DNA of 64,000 nt, taken from assembly GCA_958295865.1 (NCBI GenBank), contig CATQHF010000005.1:434001-498000 (forward strand), in the 5' to 3' direction. Below, one piece after another: positions 21,480 through 33,863 of the stretch. Position numbers and translations under genes: made by a program. Each line of letters begins with the position of its first letter. The first letter of the stretch is position 1. Below the pieces are notes generated by a model. That model made no database searches. It was not told the origin of the DNA and worked only from the letters and a program-made list of their open reading frames with translations. Source of the DNA: an uncultured Dehalococcoidia bacterium. GTDB lineage: Bacteria > Chloroflexota > Dehalococcoidia > Lucifugimonadales > JADFKI01.

Positions 21480-22217
21480 TTAGGGGAGTTCTAGTCCGTG
21501 AGATTCCAGGAGGGTCTGGTCTGCCAAGATTTGGTTGGTGGGGGCGTCGGCTACTACTTTGCCGCCGTCCATGATGATTGAGCGGGGGAATATCTCCTTG
21601 ACCATGTGCATGTCGTGGGTGGTTACGAGGATTGTCTGATCAAGGGCGTCGAGCAGGCGGATGAGGCCTCGGCGGGCGCGGGGGTCGAGTCCGGCGGACG
21701 GCTCGTCGAGGGCGAGTATTTGGGGGCGCATGGATAGCACGGTCGCTATGGCGGCGCGCTTCTTTTCGCCGCCGCTCAAGTGGAAGGGCATCCTGTCTTC
21801 GTAGCCTTCGAGTCCGACCTGCGCGAGCGCCTCGCTTACGCGCGCTTCTATCTCATCGTCGGGCAAGCCCATGTACACGGGGCCGAACGCTACGTCGTCA
21901 TAGACGCTGGGCGAAAAGAGCTGGTCGTCGGGGTCTTGGAACACGACGCCGACTAGGGCGCGTATCTCTTGCAGTCCGCGCTTGTCGCCCTCGCGCACCT
22001 CGCGCCCCAGGACGGTTACGCCGCCGCCGCCGTGCAATAGCCCGTTCAGATGCAGCAGCAGGGTTGACTTGCCGGCGCCGTTGGGGCCTAGTATGGCGAT
22101 TTTTTCGCCGGCGTCTATGCACAAGTCCACGCCGCGCAGGGCGGGGCGTCCGTCCGGATATGAGAACTCCAAGTTATGCACGGCGATGGCGCGCGTCTGT
22201 GTGTTCGGCGTGGTCAT
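21480..22217 (-). CDS. cbiO: energy-coupling-factor ABC ATPase of the cobalt/nickel type
   Basis: A 245-residue ATPase with Walker A GPNGAGKST at 44-52, the Q-loop GVVFQDPDDQLFSPSVYDDVAFGP that is typical of CbiO/EcfA proteins, signature LSGGEKKRAAIA, Walker B ILALDEPSAGLD and the switch THD. It powers uptake of metal ions through the CbiQ scaffold and the CbiM substrate protein. Its start (22217) abuts the cbiQ stop codon (22218), so the two are cotranslated. It is the last gene of the cbiM-cbiQ-cbiO operon. Confidence 0.92.
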   Translation of the reverse strand: MTTPNTQTRAIAVHNLEFSYPDGRPALRGVDLCIDAGEKIAILGPNGAGKSTLLLHLNGLLHGGGGVTVLGREVREGDKRGLQEIRALVGVVFQDPDDQLFSPSVYDDVAFGPVYMGLPDDEIEARVSEALAQVGLEGYEDRMPFHLSGGEKKRAAIATVLSMRPQILALDEPSAGLDPRARRGLIRLLDALDQTILVTTHDMHMVKEIFPRSIIMDGGKVVADAPTNQILADQTLLESHGLELP

Positions 22218-23018
22218 TTAGAGTACCAGCCTTGCGGTTACGGCTATGGCGGCGCACAGGCATAGGGACGCCGCAAGCAGCGCGAGGGTGCGGCGCTCAA
22301 GGGGGGGAGCGGCGGTCTGGCGCAAGTTGCCGTCGTAGCCTCTGGCAAGCATCGCCATGTAGATGCGCTCGCTGCGGTCGAGGGTGCGGATGAAGAGCGA
22401 GCCTGCCATTCCGCCGGCCGACTTGGCGCGCCATACGATAGAGCCGCCGGACTTGCGCCCGATGGCTGCGCTGCGGGCGGCGCGGGCGCGCATGAGGCGC
22501 TGCGCCTCGTCCACAAGCACGAACAGGTAGCGGTACATGAGCATCACTATCGCCACCAGCACGGCGGGGATGCGGAGCGCGCGCAGCGCTTCGAGCAGGC
22601 GCAGCGGCGGCGTAGTGGCGGTCAGAACGACGGCGGCGGTTACGGATGCCCACGACTTGAGCAGCACGCTTATGAAGAAGTCCAAGCCTTCGCGCGTGCC
22701 GGTGAGCGTGAAGAGCGCGAGGTCAAGCTCGAACAGCGGAGCGCCGATCTTGGTGAACACCGTCGGAAGGGCAATCAGGATGAACGGGATGGCGACTAGG
22801 GAGCGCAGGAATACGCGCAGCAACCCGACGCGCGAGAACCCCGCCGCCAGCCATACGAGCGCGAGCATAGCGGCGAAGGCGAGCCACTTGCCGGGCGGTA
22901 TGGAGGTGGTGGCGAATATGAAGCCGAGCGCCATCAGCAGCTTGATGCGGGCGTCGGCGGCGTGAAACCAGCTCTTGCCTTCCAGGTAGCGATTCAGAAA
23001 TCCGGCGGCGGTGGTCAT
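22218..23018 (-). CDS. cbiQ: cobalt/nickel ECF transporter T component
   Basis: A 266-residue membrane protein. Seen: N-terminal FLNRYLEGKSWFHAADARIKLL, the usual CbiQ opening, several hydrophobic helices, and the two coupling helices with A-R-G/A motifs: LLEALRALRIPAVLVAIVMLMYRY and the RARAARSA / LARGYDG segments. It links the CbiM metal-binding protein to the CbiO ATPases. It lies between cbiM (79 bases upstream) and cbiO (immediately downstream). Length is normal for the family. Confidence 0.9.
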   Translation of the reverse strand: MTTAAGFLNRYLEGKSWFHAADARIKLLMALGFIFATTSIPPGKWLAFAAMLALVWLAAGFSRVGLLRVFLRSLVAIPFILIALPTVFTKIGAPLFELDLALFTLTGTREGLDFFISVLLKSWASVTAAVVLTATTPPLRLLEALRALRIPAVLVAIVMLMYRYLFVLVDEAQRLMRARAARSAAIGRKSGGSIVWRAKSAGGMAGSLFIRTLDRSERIYMAMLARGYDGNLRQTAAPPLERRTLALLAASLCLCAAIAVTARLVL

Positions 23019-23097
23019 TCTTTCGTGTCAGAACTTGGCTATTGCCTATTGGTCATCGTTTTCGTGATTAGTACGCGGCAAAAAGGTCAGGCGGGTC

Positions 23098-24135
23098 TTA
23101 TTCGTGCAGCGGCGTGGCTCTGCGGCGGTAGAGTGTGTAGATGCCGTAGATGCCGCCTGCCACCAGCAGGTATATGAGGGTTACGCCGATGACGCCCGCG
23201 AGTATCGTGGCAAGCGCTTGGTTTTGTATGCCGGGCAAGGCGTAGTCGGCGATGACGGCGTAGGGCGCGGACTGGGCGCGCTCCATGAAGCCTGCGTTCT
23301 CGGCGACGCGCTCCAAGCCGTCGGGGGAGCCGGACGCGAAGGGAGCAAGCAGTACGACCGCTACGGCTATCAGGTAGCCGGCCGCCCACCAACGGATGCC
23401 GACGGGCATGCCGCCTGAGCGGACAGGCTGCGCGGGCGCGGCGGATTTTTCGGGCATTTGAAATAGGGCGGGACGCGCGGCGCGGATGAACGACAGGGCG
23501 AATACGGTTATCAGACCTTCGCCTATCCCGATGAGCATGTGGACGCCGGTCATGGTGGGGAGCGCGAGGGCGAGGGGCGTCGTGCCGCTCAGACCGAGCA
23601 TGAGCGCGGTGGATGCGGCGGCGACCACTACGGATACCCATGCGGCGATGAAGCCGCCTATCAACAGGTGCGTGAAGGATGCGCCGAACTTGCGGGCGAG
23701 CCAGTACACGCCATAGCCCGCGAGCACGCTGGCGATGGACATATTGAGCAGGTTGACGCCTAGCACGACAAGCCCGCCGTCCTGGAACAGCAGCGCCTGC
23801 ATGCCGACTACGGCGGTCATCACGAGTATAGCCGCCCAGGGGCCTAGGATGATTGCCGCGAGCGCGCCGCCTATCAGGTGGCCCGATGTGCCGCCCGCGA
23901 CGGGGAAGTTGAGCATCTGCGCGGCGAAGATGAAGGCTGCCATGACGCCCATCATGGGGACGATGCGCTCGTTGAGGTTCTTGTTGGCGCGGCGGATGGC
24001 GATGCCGATGAACACGGCGGCGAGCAGGTAGCCGACTATTGCGACCGGCATGCTGAAGAAGCCGTCGGGCGCGTGCAGAGGCAGGGGCAGGGGCAGGCTT
24101 GCGCCCGTGGTGGGCATGCTCATGCTGGATACCAT
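23098..24135 (-). CDS. cbiM: CbiM-type metal transporter fused to a PDGLE (CbiN-like) domain
   Basis: A 345-residue membrane protein. The first part is CbiM: HAPDGFFSMPVAIVGYLLAA (metal-binding N-terminal region), FPVAGGTSGHLIGGALAAIILGPWAA, LLFQDGGLVVLGVNLLNM and TGVHMLIGIGEGLIT. The last 110 residues carry a helix, SPDGLERVAENAGF, and another helix: the PDGLE domain that replaces the separate CbiN/NikN subunit. The substrate is Co2+ or Ni2+; sequence alone does not separate them. Upstream are AAGGGGG as ribosome site and a strong promoter with an operator-like repeat. Supplementary Met residues at 4 and 6 could also start translation, losing nothing of the metal site. Confidence 0.88.
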   Translation of the reverse strand: MVSSMSMPTTGASLPLPLPLHAPDGFFSMPVAIVGYLLAAVFIGIAIRRANKNLNERIVPMMGVMAAFIFAAQMLNFPVAGGTSGHLIGGALAAIILGPWAAILVMTAVVGMQALLFQDGGLVVLGVNLLNMSIASVLAGYGVYWLARKFGASFTHLLIGGFIAAWVSVVVAAASTALMLGLSGTTPLALALPTMTGVHMLIGIGEGLITVFALSFIRAARPALFQMPEKSAAPAQPVRSGGMPVGIRWWAAGYLIAVAVVLLAPFASGSPDGLERVAENAGFMERAQSAPYAVIADYALPGIQNQALATILAGVIGVTLIYLLVAGGIYGIYTLYRRRATPLHE

Positions 24136-24254
24136 CTTGGATTGCCCCCTTCCGCGCTTGGAGTGGCTTGACTGCTACGCTGTTCCTATATTCCTTCGAC
24201 GAGCAGAGAACAGGCTCTAATCTCCCCCTTTGGAGAAGGAGTATATGCGTAGAG

Positions 24255-24283
24255 ATTTTAATGTGAATAGTTGCACATGTCAA
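24255..24283 (-). promoter_or_regulatory. consensus promoter of the cbiMQO operon
   Basis: On the minus strand TTGACA (24283-24278), a 17-base spacer and TAAAAT (24260-24255). Transcription would begin near 24248, leaving a leader of about 112 bases. It is among the best promoter matches in the window. No cobalamin riboswitch core was recognised in the leader. Confidence 0.75.
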
Positions 24284-27578: not shown

Positions 27579-27822
27579 AGGGGTATTCTATCCCATCCGG
27601 GGGGCTGGCGCAGGGGTTTTTCCATCATCCTTGTGAACGCTGAAGTGGTTAAATCCCTTTGGCAACGCGAGATTGCAGGTGGACAAGGATTTCAGATTCA
27701 TCACTGCGTTCGGAATGACAGGGTGGGGGCGCTCGGAATGACGGGGTAAGAGGCACTTGGTAGGACGGGGGGAGGGCGTTCAAGATGACGGTGTGGGGGC
27801 GTTTGGGATGACGATGAAAAGA
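27579..27822. other. intergenic region with short repeat remnants
   Basis: No gene is seen. About 27690-27720 carries the CATCACTGCGTTCGGAATGACAG half of the palindromic repeat, followed by three degenerate GGGATGACGG-type copies. The end toward 27870 is the terminator of the Cache-repeat gene. Confidence 0.5.
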
Positions 27823-27853
27823 CCATGGAGGCCGACGGGGGCGACCTCCATGG
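27823..27853 (-). terminator. rho-independent terminator of the Cache-repeat gene
   Basis: CCATGGAGG and CCTCCATGG form a perfect 9-bp stem with a 13-base loop. Read on the minus strand it is followed by TCTTTTC, a short U-rich tail. It lies 18 bases past the stop codon at 27871. Confidence 0.72.
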
Positions 27854-27870: not shown

Positions 27871-30840
27871 TTATTCGGTGTAGTAGCCGGAGCCGAAGAT
27901 TAACCCGTCGTGTCGGATGATCCACGAATGTTTTGGCTCATCCAGCCCGCTCACGGGGTTGACGCGGGTGTAGTTCAGCCAGCCGCCTTCTTCGGTCGCT
28001 TCCGCTATCGCCTTGCCGTGCGCGTAGCCGTTGGCGTCGGTGAGAACCTTGACATCTGTGCCTAACCGCTCGGGCGTCGCCGCGTGCGCCAGGAAGTTGT
28101 CGTCCGCGCCCACGATGAACACATACCACTGACCGTTGACGCTTGCCGGGTCGTTGTAGCGTTGGAGAATTGCGCCGAGACCTTCAGCGTCGTATCGCGC
28201 TATCGCCTGACGCACATACGCCAAAGTATATGCCTCCGGGTCCTCTTGCTCCAGTTCAATGTCCCGGTCATACCAGCCGGAGCCGAATATGAGATCATCA
28301 TGCTTCACCAAGTAGGAGTGCTTGCGCTCGTGCATGAAGTCGTCCACAGGGTTGAGATACACATAGTCAACCCACTTGCCCGCTTCGGTGGCGGTTACGA
28401 ACTCCGCGCCAAAGTCGTAGCCGGTGATGTCCACGCCAAACGGGCCTCTGACATCCAGCCCTATGTTAGACGGCACCGTCGGGTGAACGATTATCTCAAA
28501 GTCTTCATCCAGTACGAACAGATACAGGTCGCCGTCCACGCTGTCCATAGTGTTGTAGTAATCCAGCGTTGCCTCGCGGCCATCGGCTTCATAGCGGGCT
28601 ATTGCCTGCCGCACGAATTCCTGCGTGAACGCGACGGGGTTGCCATCTATGTCGCCGTAGTAGCCGGAGCCGAAGATTAGCCCGTCTTGGCGCCTGACCC
28701 AAGTGCGCTTAGGCTCTTCTTCATCAGTAGCGGTCGCGGGGTTGGGCCAGAGATAGTTTATCCAGACGCCTTCTTCGGTTGCTTTCGCCATCTCCTTGCC
28801 AAGCTCATAGCCGTCGGAGGATACCAGTTCCTTGACATCGGTGCCCAGCAGTGACGGTATGGGCGCATGCGCTATCATCTTGTCGTCTGCGTCGATTATG
28901 AACACATACCACGGACCGTCGATGTTTTCTTCGTCGTTGTAGTATTCGAGAACGGCGTCGCGCCCTTCGGCGCCATATCGCGCTATCGCCTGATTCACAT
29001 AGGCTATCGTGTACGCCTCCGGGTCCTCCTGATCCAGTTCAATGTCCCGGTCATACCAGCCGGAGCCGAATATGAGATCATCATGCTTCACCAGATACGA
29101 ATGCTTGCGCTCGTGCATGAAGTCGTCCACCGGGTTGAGATATACATAGTCAACCCACTTGCCCGCTTCGGTGGCGGTTACGAACTCCGCGCCAAAGTCG
29201 TAGCCGGTGATGTCCACGCCAAACTGGCCTTTGACACTCAGCCCTATGTTTGACGGCACCGTCGGGTGAACGATTATCTCAAAGTCTTCATCCAGCACGA
29301 ACAGGTACAGATCGCCGTCCACGCTCTCCATGGTGTTGTAGTAATCGAGCGTTGCCTCGCGGCCATCGGCTTCGTAGCGGGCTATTGCCTGCCGCACGAA
29401 GTCCTGCGTGAGCGCGGCGGGGTTGTCGTCCGTGTCGCCGTCGTAGTAGCCGGAGCCGAAGATTAGCCCGTCGTGTCGGATGATCCACGAATGTTTTGGC
29501 TCATCCAGCCCGCTCACGGGGTTTATGCGGGTGTAGTCCAGCCAGCCGCCTTCTTCGGTCGCTTCCGCTATCGCCTTGCCGTGCGCGTAGCCGTTGGCGT
29601 CGGTGAGAACCTTGACATCGGTGCCCAACCGCTCAGGCGTCGCCGCGTGCGCCAGGAAGTTGTCGTCCTCGCCCACGATGAACACATACCACTGACCGTT
29701 GACGCTTTCTTCGTCGTTGTAGTATTCGACAATGGCGTCGAGACCGTTGGCGTCATATCGCGCTATCGCCTGATTCACATAGGCTACCGTGTACGCCTCC
29801 GGGTCCTCTTCCTCCAGCGCGATGTCCCGGTCATACCAGCCGGAGCCGAATATCAGATTTTCGTGCTTCACCAAGTAGGAGTGCTTGCGCTCGTGCTCGA
29901 AGTCGTCAGCCGGGTTGAGATACACATAGTCAACCCACTTGCCCGCTTCGGTGGCGGTTATGAACTCCGCGCCAAAGTTGTGGCCGGTGATGTCCGTGCC
30001 AAGCGGGCCCCTGACATCCAGCCCTATGTTCGATGGCACCGTGGGGTGAACGATTATCTCAAAGTTTTCATCCAGCACGAACAGATACAGGTCGCCGCTC
30101 ACGCTGTCCATAGTGTTGTAGTAATCGAGGGTTGCCGCGCGCCCTTCGGTCTCGTAGCGGCGGATAGCCTCTTGCACATAGGCTTTGGTGTATGCGGGGG
30201 CGGCGGCTTGGTCGAGCCAGTCTAGGCGCTCCGCCAGCTCCGACACATCCGCGCTGCTGTCGGCTGCGTCGATGTCGGCGCGCAGCTCGTCGATTGCGGC
30301 ATTCAGCTCGGCGAGGGCGTCCTCATCGGCGTCGTCATCTTCGTCTGCCGCTTCCATAGCCAGCACGTCGGCTATCACCGCGCGCAGGTCGGCTTCCATC
30401 AGCTCGTACACATCATCATCGTCGAGATCGCCTTCGTCGAACTCCATGAACTCCATGAAGTCCATCTCGTCGAAGGCGCTTAGCAGTTCCATGAGGAGGT
30501 CTTCTTCCATGCTCATCGCTTCGTTGAGGGAGTCCTCAAGCGAGCCGATGAGTTCCTCGGCATCGGCAGCGTCAGCCTCGAGGCTGTCGATGCTCGCGGA
30601 CAGCGCGGCGATGTCGCTCTGTGACGCGCCGCCTTCCACAGCGGAGAGGGCAGCCTGCAAGCCGCTTATCTCGTTGGTGAGCGCGGCGATGTCGGCGTTT
30701 TGCGCCGCTACGATAGCATCAACATCACTTCCTGCGTCCGTATCGCCGCCCGATGCGCCAACGGCGAGTACGAGCGCGATTATCGCTATGACGGCAGCGA
30801 CGCCGCCAAGCGCAAGCGCATACATTGGGTTCTGGTTCAT
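27871..30840 (-). CDS. membrane-anchored protein with six tandem Cache-type sensor domains
   Basis: A 989-residue protein. Residues 6-30 form one membrane helix (ALALGGVAAVIAIIALVLAVG). Then comes a predicted coiled coil (35-110), a very acidic Asp/Glu region (115-200), and six tandem domains starting near 216, 348, 474, 608, 735 and 870. Odd domains share YYNTMDSV-GDLYLFVLDE-FEIIVHPTVPSNIGL and end SYLVKH-LIFGSGWYDRDI. Even domains share QWYVFIVG-DD-FLAHAATPERLGTDVK and end HSWIIRHDGLIFGSGYY. These match single Cache ligand-binding folds, usually found one per chemoreceptor or kinase. No kinase, HAMP, MCP or cyclase part follows; the protein ends after the sixth domain. DNA identity between repeats is high. 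A ligand-collecting or decoy role outside the cell is inference. Confidence 0.8.
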   Translation of the reverse strand: MNQNPMYALALGGVAAVIAIIALVLAVGASGGDTDAGSDVDAIVAAQNADIAALTNEISGLQAALSAVEGGASQSDIAALSASIDSLEADAADAEELIGSLEDSLNEAMSMEEDLLMELLSAFDEMDFMEFMEFDEGDLDDDDVYELMEADLRAVIADVLAMEAADEDDDADEDALAELNAAIDELRADIDAADSSADVSELAERLDWLDQAAAPAYTKAYVQEAIRRYETEGRAATLDYYNTMDSVSGDLYLFVLDENFEIIVHPTVPSNIGLDVRGPLGTDITGHNFGAEFITATEAGKWVDYVYLNPADDFEHERKHSYLVKHENLIFGSGWYDRDIALEEEDPEAYTVAYVNQAIARYDANGLDAIVEYYNDEESVNGQWYVFIVGEDDNFLAHAATPERLGTDVKVLTDANGYAHGKAIAEATEEGGWLDYTRINPVSGLDEPKHSWIIRHDGLIFGSGYYDGDTDDNPAALTQDFVRQAIARYEADGREATLDYYNTMESVDGDLYLFVLDEDFEIIVHPTVPSNIGLSVKGQFGVDITGYDFGAEFVTATEAGKWVDYVYLNPVDDFMHERKHSYLVKHDDLIFGSGWYDRDIELDQEDPEAYTIAYVNQAIARYGAEGRDAVLEYYNDEENIDGPWYVFIIDADDKMIAHAPIPSLLGTDVKELVSSDGYELGKEMAKATEEGVWINYLWPNPATATDEEEPKRTWVRRQDGLIFGSGYYGDIDGNPVAFTQEFVRQAIARYEADGREATLDYYNTMDSVDGDLYLFVLDEDFEIIVHPTVPSNIGLDVRGPFGVDITGYDFGAEFVTATEAGKWVDYVYLNPVDDFMHERKHSYLVKHDDLIFGSGWYDRDIELEQEDPEAYTLAYVRQAIARYDAEGLGAILQRYNDPASVNGQWYVFIVGADDNFLAHAATPERLGTDVKVLTDANGYAHGKAIAEATEEGGWLNYTRVNPVSGLDEPKHSWIIRHDGLIFGSGYYTE

Positions 30841-30862
30841 TTATGCCTCCAAGTAATCAATA

Positions 30863-30891
30863 GGGTGTTCCGACAAAGGGTGTTCCGACAA
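30863..30891 (-). promoter_or_regulatory. 14-bp direct repeat in the leader of the Cache-repeat gene
   Basis: GGGTGTTCCGACAA at 30863-30876 and 30878-30891, a 15-base period, between the putative promoter and ATG 30840. It is too regular for chance and could bind a regulator; nothing else is known. Confidence 0.5.
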
Positions 30892-30905: not shown

Positions 30906-30961
30906 ATTCTAGCATATTTTCAGCGTACTCTGTGAACTTTTTCACCAATGGAAAAGTTCAC
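30906..30961 (-). promoter_or_regulatory. candidate promoter and palindromic operator of the Cache-repeat gene
   Basis: On the minus strand a TAGAAT -10 lies at 30911-30906 with TTCACA 19 bases upstream. The -35 region overlaps a perfect 10-bp inverted repeat, GTGAACTTTT (30932-30941) and AAAAGTTCAC (30952-30961), with a 10-base centre. The overlap suggests a repressor or activator site. Confidence 0.45.
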
Positions 30962-32243: not shown

Positions 32244-33863
32244 TCACAACTCTACTTCCATCGGCTTGAACATGCAGCCTTCCACAAAAATGTCGAAGAA
32301 GTCGGGGGTCGTTTCCAGTTCGATGTGCTGGATGGTCTGCGCCAGACGCTCTATGCGGCGGCGGAGTGTGCCGGACAGCAGCATTATCGTCGCGCCTTCC
32401 AGGGCGGCGTTGCCCACCTTGACGATGCGCTGCGGTGGCAGGTTCGCCACGAAGCCGATGTCCACGGCGTTGCCCACATCGATGTAATTGGCGAAGCCGC
32501 CCGCGAGATACAGATTGGATATGGCGTCGAGCGGCGCGCCGTAGTTGCGTAGCACGATGTACTGGCCCGAGTAGTTGGCAGACTTTGCCTGCGCGAGCGC
32601 GCTGATGTCCGCCCTGGACAGCGACATGCCCCGCTCCGGCACGAAGGCGAACTCGCGCGCGCCGTCATGGAACACGCCTAGCTCGCTCATCTTGCCGTTG
32701 CGCCGCAGCTCGGCGAGCAGGTCAACCAGCCCTGAGCCGCAGATGCCCTGTGGCTCAGCGTCGCCGATAGTCTTGTAGGCGACGCCCTCGTCGCCTATAC
32801 GCACGCTCTCCACCGCGCCGTCGTAGCCGGGCATGCCGTAGCGCACCTGACCGCCCTCGAAGGCGGGGCCCGCGGGACAGGACGCCGACATCAGCCTGTG
32901 GCGGTTGCCAAGCACGACTTCGGTGTTCGTGCCGACATCCACGAGCATCACTATCTCTTCTTCCTCATCCATCCCGACCGCGAGGATGCCGGCGGCGATG
33001 TCAGCCCCCACATGCGAGCCGATGATGGGCCCGCCATAGACATTCGCGTTGGGGAAGACGCGCAGCCCGACATCGGACGCCTTCACATTCAGGGCAGTCG
33101 TCTCGCGCTTGCCGTCGAGCATCTCAAGCTCGGTGACGGACTTGTACGGGCGCTCGCCGATGAGCTGCACATCGAAGCCGAAGAATATGTCGCGCATGGT
33201 GGAGTTGCCGACTACGACCACTTCATAGATGCGGCGGCGATGGAAGTTCAGGCGGCGGCTGAGTTCGCCTATCTCGAAGTTTATCGCCGACAGCATGACC
33301 TGTCGCAGTTCGCCGGGGAAGTCGCCGCCGTCGTAAGAGATGCGGTGCATTATGTCGCTGCCGCCAAAGCGCTGCGGGTTCTCGAACGACGCCGTTCCCA
33401 AGATCGCGCCAGACTCCAGATCCAGCAGGTTGAGCACGACCGTCGTCGTGCCGACATCAATCGCCACGCCATAGACCGCGCCGCGATAGTCGTCTATTCG
33501 GGCGTCGCCGAAGAACACGGCGTCCCCGACGCGCTTGGTGAAGGGAGACGGCTCTATGTCGCGGCGCACCGAGCGCGTGAGGATGCGCGGTTGGCGGCGC
33601 AGAACCGCGAACTCTATCTCAGCGTCCGCGTCGACGACGCTCGCCTGACACGCGAGGCGGTAGTCATCGCGCAGAAACGCCTCCGCTTCCGTATGCGGCG
33701 AGAGGGCATCCATGCCGCGCTTAATCTCCACGATGCACTCGTGGCACTCGCCGGTTCTGCCGCAGGAGGTCGGCACGCGCACGCTGAGCGCGTCGGCGTA
33801 GTCGAAGACGCTCTTGCCGACGGTCGATGTGAGGGCGCGCCCATTGTAGTTGAGTGGCGACAT
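32244..33863 (-). CDS. RACo-like ferredoxin/ASKHA protein (DUF4445), corrinoid activation
   Basis: A 539-residue protein. The N-terminal domain is a 2Fe-2S ferredoxin with cysteines C34, C40, C43 and C72 ([17 protein letters not shown]). The rest is the actin-like DUF4445 region: [69 protein letters not shown] and [20 protein letters not shown]. Such proteins use ATP and an electron to bring Co(II)-corrinoids back to Co(I) for methyltransferases. No corrinoid protein or methyltransferase gene lies next to it; a cobalt-type importer sits 8 kb away. The neighbours are an amidase gene upstream and the CtBP-like gene downstream. Its exact partner is unknown. Confidence 0.87.

Follow-up and report, generated by a model that had tools for sequence, protein, structure and literature searches.

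What does a protein do that strings six Cache domains behind one membrane anchor and ends without any signalling part? Such a protein is encoded in a 64,000-nucleotide stretch (hereafter the window) of contig CATQHF010000005.1 from an uncultured Dehalococcoidia bacterium, and we followed it through its domain structure, its relatives and its genomic setting.

Six tandem Cache domains on a single anchor

The Cache gene is uninterrupted and begins with an ATG codon, with a GGAGG ribosome-binding site 5 nt upstream (Table 1). Pfam sCache_2 (PF17200) matches its product in six separate stretches (E=5.9e-48, 163 bits against a cut-off of 25), and each of the six domains scores above 25 bits. These domains fall into two alternating types: identity is 79–95% among the A copies (1, 3, 5) and 59–88% among the B copies (2, 4, 6), as compared to 41–46% between A and B. 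The initial annotation had proposed this alternation, together with one membrane helix, an acidic stretch and the lack of an output part, and all four features were borne out. The hydrophobic segment at the N terminus is the single one in the protein, so that helices flanking the sensor on both sides are absent. The stalk that follows contains 30% Asp/Glu and 3 Lys/Arg residues, and is helical in the full-length predicted model (low confidence). The protein stops two residues beyond the sixth Cache domain and contains neither a cytoplasmic output domain nor a match to a solute-binding protein family of ABC transporters. A frameshift concealing an output domain downstream was ruled out, because the stop codon is followed by a hairpin with a T-rich tail and then by an intact thiI gene, an order kept in the orthologous loci. 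A whole-genome search returned these six sCache_2 domains, no further one, and no dCache_1 domain.

Table 1. Features of the Cache gene and its product, in window coordinates.
Feature	Coordinates	Strand	Remarks
Tandem-Cache surface protein, whole gene	27871..30840	-	989 aa
Ribosome-binding site GGAGG	30846..30850	-	From sequence
Inverted repeat, operator-like	30932..30961	strandless	Upstream of the Cache gene
N-terminal membrane anchor	30760..30816	-	aa 9-27, without lipobox Cys; hydropathy
Acidic helical (coiled-coil-like) stalk	30193..30735	-	aa 36-216; composition, low-confidence model; L068 and L070 have comparable stalks
Cache domain 1, type A	29830..30192	-	aa 217-337
Cache domain 2, type B	29440..29793	-	aa 350-467
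Cache domain 3, type A	29050..29409	-	aa 478-597
Cache domain 4, type B	28657..29013	-	aa 610-728; probably ancestral B, groups with last domain of L070
Cache domain 5, type A	28267..28629	-	aa 738-858
Cache domain 6, type B	27880..28230	-	aa 871-987
Intrinsic-terminator-like hairpin	27823..27853	-	12 pairs, tail TCTTTTC; 3' of the Cache gene

Fold and ligand pocket

The Cache assignment was confirmed by structure prediction. An AF2 model of the first A-B pair, built with 60 family pairs, reached a pLDDT of 94 and gives each repeat its own helix pair and sheet. The nearest solved structures are single Cache domains of the sCache_2 type (Z 14–17): Adeh_3718 (4k08, Z 16.6), 2qhk (16.3), PscD (5g4y, 15.9), 4exo (15.8) and TlpB (13.9), of which 4k08, 2qhk/4exo and 5g4y match over 126–127 residues. 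Foldseek agrees with these single-Cache matches. The dCache_2 profile (PF08269) also exceeds its cut-off on the protein (152 bits); a double Cache was rejected, as the model lacks the shared long N-terminal helix and has a helix pair in every repeat. The full-length model is poor (pLDDT 66, pTM 0.27) and we therefore make no claim about how the six beads are arranged.

In PscD, Tyr90, His103, Tyr143 and Lys156 hold the carboxylate, which is flanked by Trp92 and Trp145 and backed by Phe126 (PMC5062169). We mapped these positions by profile alignment of the family to 5g4y and found Tyr, His, Tyr and Lys in all six domains of the window protein. Across 280 distinct family domains they are kept in 96%, 74%, 95% and 96%, respectively; Tyr-Tyr-Lys occurs in 261 and all four residues in 198. 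By analogy with PscD, the pockets of the window protein would bind carboxylates. Trp92 is replaced by Phe, as in 4EXO (PMC12415202). The position of Trp145 is Tyr in A domains and Arg or Trp in B domains, and that of Phe126 is Gly throughout the window domains, so the pockets are not identical to that of PscD and their ligands may be larger. Since a single wall residue distinguishes A from B pockets, their ligand preference probably differs as well. The lactate sensors studied in PMC12415202 are marked by Leu in place of His; the window domains have His, which would make pyruvate or acetate likelier ligands than lactate.

A large family without signalling output

The initial annotation had treated the protein as a solitary oddity. 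It belongs instead to a large family, with relatives in 26 of 98 related genomes searched and 275 relatives in a separate repeat-profile scan of 84,980 species genomes, from which 78 loci were fetched. The relatives span Chloroflexota, Binatota, Poribacteria and Actinomycetes, and those listed are MAGs; the ones that could be traced are from marine sponges. Within the phylum the family is clumped, occurring in 37 of 400 genomes and in a few families. No relative was found on viral contigs, and plasmids yielded one distant match (28% identity).

The N-terminal part is readable in 104 distinct family proteins, which carry one to eight tandem Cache domains: two in 33 proteins, three in 24, one in 19, four in 18, six in 7, five in 2 and eight in 1. 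The anchor is a lipobox in 47 and a membrane helix in 54. Eleven have collagen-like G-X-Y stalks and others have coiled-coil stalks. The anchor type switches even among orthologues of the same genus, as in L070, which has a canonical lipobox (AMAAC) in place of the membrane helix; therefore, no part of the protein crosses the membrane in that species.

We saw no signalling output domain among the 104 proteins, about 18 unusual members being checked by Pfam and the remainder by tail length. The last Cache domain is usually followed by no more than 25 residues, and by no more than about 50 in all but six proteins (L069, L071, L074, L092, L093 and L104). Three of these (L069, L071, L074) form one type; the first two, from the window's own genus, have C-terminal PPC and RCC1 repeats (L069 6231-7907, L071 958-3336). 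In L093 (5183-7528) a lipoprotein joins Cache domains to a glucose/sorbosone dehydrogenase of the PQQ type, and the tail of L104 runs into an unread stretch. L092_8676 was rejected as a C-terminal output, since a Cache fragment is there attached to an SBP_bac_3 solute-binding protein. In the remaining fusions the partner lies ahead of the Cache array or is interspersed with it: Peripla_BP_6 in L137, a 5'-nucleotidase with a C-terminal membrane anchor in L123 and Ig-like domains in L134. All fusion partners in the family are extracellular types.

A search for a partner with a similar acidic, coiled-coil head, which had been proposed, returned same-genus orthologues only, and clustering of the neighbouring genes found no conserved partner gene across clades. 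The recurring neighbours Lit, UvrD and MazG were rejected as partners because they follow clade synteny. A homologue of the Lit lipoprotein transacylase lies on the opposite strand just downstream of the Cache gene in L120 (7178-8821) and 11 further loci, and its position in these 12 loci is probably the synteny of one clade. Peripla_BP_6-type genes, of which the window's own genome has 4 in all, occur in the fetched flanks of seven Cache loci, and three of these genes follow the Cache gene immediately, in the same orientation. As the seven loci include two orthologues and the tally is not a clean statistical test, the link between solute-binding-protein genes and Cache loci is at most suggestive.

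Repeat turnover and possible exchange between phyla

In a tree of 58 domains, window domain 1 clusters with the first domains of the two sister species, and domain 4 pairs with the C-terminal-most domain of L070; domains 3/5 and 2/6 are copies private to the source species. Domains 3 and 5 are 95% identical at the DNA level. The domain order differs in the sister species of the genus, in which the A/B alternation is absent. Because of these private copies and differing orders, we read the alternation as a two-domain unit that was recently duplicated in tandem. Such duplications recur: alternation arose independently in L065, and the domains of L075 look like a period-three repeat. The initial annotation had taken the A/B pair for a dimer-like unit repeated three times; a recent unit duplication that is absent in sister species gives no conserved functional pair.

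Domains from different phyla share 60–77% identity, with 77% between L137 (Actinomycetes) and L080 (Dehalococcoidia). This suggests transfer of Cache domains between phyla, with MAG contamination possible for short contigs; the members from Binatia, Poribacteria, Caldilineaceae and Tepidiformaceae are on chromosome-level assemblies.

The locus and its flanking signals

The Cache gene had been described as an independent unit with its own promoter, palindromic operator and terminator. An inverted repeat and a terminator-like hairpin are present and the gene is closed by the terminator, as an independent unit should be; the promoter part was not confirmed, a consensus scan having found no sigma-70 promoter for the gene. 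The arms of the upstream inverted repeat are 13 nt long and match at 92%, and its 11/12 palindrome was reached in 1 of 300 shuffles. Different palindromes occupy the same upstream place in the sister species L070 (12/12, matched in 0 of 300 shuffles) and L068 (11/12, 4 of 300), whose Cache genes also have downstream hairpins, as judged by eye. These palindromes and hairpins fit a single-gene, regulated unit.

The gene order is AcsV-like gene, 2-hydroxyacid dehydrogenase, Cache gene, thiI and MFS transporter, identical in L143, with only 292 bp between the stop codon of the Cache gene and thiI. The MFS transporter belongs to a family that includes lactate carriers. Conservation of the dehydrogenase, thiI and the transporter beside the Cache gene is limited to the genus. 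Beside the window's Cache gene we found no conserved uptake gene and no adjoining permease.

Habitat of the relatives

The habitat tally covers the 78 fetched loci. To our knowledge, none of the 78 loci carries a name recognised as free-living. Thirteen have SB06xx codes, which we take to stand for Ircinia ramosa, and the source of 24 was not traced. Fifteen loci coded jk18x come from Caribbean Ircinia (PMC9531527) and three more (p16x) share the accession series of jk18x. Aplysina aerophoba bins account for three loci (PMC5649159) and Petrosia ficiformis 277c for one (PMC8941161). The codes of a further 19 (RHO, COS, IRC, APA) fit the host sponges of PMC8163846, with no accession match. The family is likely restricted to sponges, a restriction left unproven by the 195 weaker relatives outside the tally, and the source bacterium is probably a sponge symbiont.

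Capture of carboxylates as the proposed role

We consider the chances about even that the protein is a tethered, multivalent extracellular binder that captures small carboxylates and is not a signalling receptor. The N-terminal helix would anchor it and the acidic helical stalk would keep the Cache beads away from the membrane. The six sCache_2 beads, presumably outside the cell, would each hold a small carboxylate; C2-C3 acids (pyruvate, acetate, propionate, glycolate) are candidates by analogy. The protein would thus capture and concentrate acids, or acid-bearing groups, at the surface and pass no signal, and the bound acids might serve uptake systems or host association. What favours capture over the other readings is that family members are fused to exoenzymes and solute-binding proteins; the Peripla_BP_6-type genes flanking seven loci are in agreement, with the statistical reservation given above. 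The multivalent display outside the cell in the initial annotation finds support, with the outside location itself presumed; its sensor array does not, since the protein has no signalling part, L070 is anchored by a lipobox and the genome lacks a chemoreceptor.

Lipoprotein solute-binding proteins of ABC importers are likewise lipid- or helix-tethered extracellular binders and are fused to two family members. They differ in having an unrelated fold, and no permease or ATPase genes are tied to the window's Cache gene. The animal alpha2delta and Cachd1 proteins are also extracellular Cache proteins without an output domain of their own; they are eukaryotic channel or receptor subunits with a double Cache and VWA, and a distant fold match to the window protein.

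The stalked beads could instead be adhesins that recognise the host by binding polymer-borne carboxylates in the sponge matrix or on adjacent cells, with copy number setting reach and avidity. The traceable relatives are sponge MAGs over several phyla, the cross-phylum domain identity suggests transfer, and rapid copy-number turnover with collagen-like or coiled-coil stalks is usual in surface adhesins. Sponge Thaumarchaeota offer a parallel: Cache domains are reported to be enriched in these symbionts, two Pfams being sponge-specific, and a surface location and host recognition were proposed (PMC7848895). Those proteins are archaeal and at most candidate members of the tandem-Cache family. 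However, adhesion alone would not need buried small-ligand pocket residues kept at 95–96%, the fusions suit capture better and the restriction to sponges is unproven, and we regard this reading as possible but somewhat unlikely. A wider version, in which the commonest extracellular sensor domain of bacteria, freed of signalling, was multiplied and traded across phyla into a surface class of sponge symbionts at large, and in which symbiosis rests on its binding of acidic host or community molecules (glycans of the sponge matrix that carry acidic groups, for example), is speculative and in our estimate unlikely.

A co-receptor that senses carboxylates and relays its state to a distinct membrane kinase for output in trans would accord with the sensory role of the domain family elsewhere; in a 2016 survey every Cache family except SMP_2 was found with known signalling outputs (PMC4822843). 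The genome has 10 HATPase_c matches, and in three species the presumed promoter region contains a palindrome. This reading is very doubtful, however: no kinase or chemoreceptor recurs among the clustered neighbours, the anchors swap between lipid and helix, and the genome has no MCP domain, while the 4 of 60 relatives' genomes with an MCP match lack the tandem-Cache family. That the beads are mere folded repeats of a surface coat or spacer, with vestigial pockets, would suit a repeat number of 1–8 and a very acidic protein (net charge about −147), but is highly improbable given the retention of Tyr-Tyr-Lys and the occurrence of single-domain members.

Chemoreceptors with sCache_2 domains (PscD 5g4y, Adeh_3718 4k08, V. 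parahaemolyticus 4exo, McpP) share the fold, the Pfam family and the Tyr/His/Tyr/Lys set with the window protein. In each of them a lone domain is flanked by two membrane helices and linked to HAMP-MCP, in contrast to the 1–8 domains after a single anchor, without output, of the tandem-Cache family. The usual receptor form is seen in L007 from genome G023, filed in the same order, in which one sCache_2 domain is followed by a HAMP-MCP-like tail (by eye) with an MCP match in the same ORF. G023 carries several MCPs, and L007 has a Firmicutes-like sequence; this receptor is probably a contamination of the assembly.

With an output-less family in symbionts of several phyla, Cache annotations there cannot be read as sensors. 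The family is a testable candidate for uptake or recognition of host-derived acids by sponge symbionts, and a single Cache bead, being small, should express and screen easily.

Other features of the window

Between the Cache gene's ribosome-binding site and the palindrome upstream of it lies a perfect 15-bp direct repeat, AGGGTGTTCCGACAA (30862-30891). The window also holds genes for a cobalt ECF transporter (CbiM, CbiQ, ABC ATPase) and for a corrinoid reductive activator of the AcsV/RamA-like kind, at 21480-24283 and 32244-33863. A dispersed intergenic repeat, GTCATTCCGAACGNNNTGA, occurs at 27706-27813 and at 1025, 9006, 26045, 41760, 41806 and 63668. Its core has 8 matches in the window as compared to 0.06 expected, and 128 exact copies are found genome-wide; the reversed control pattern has none.
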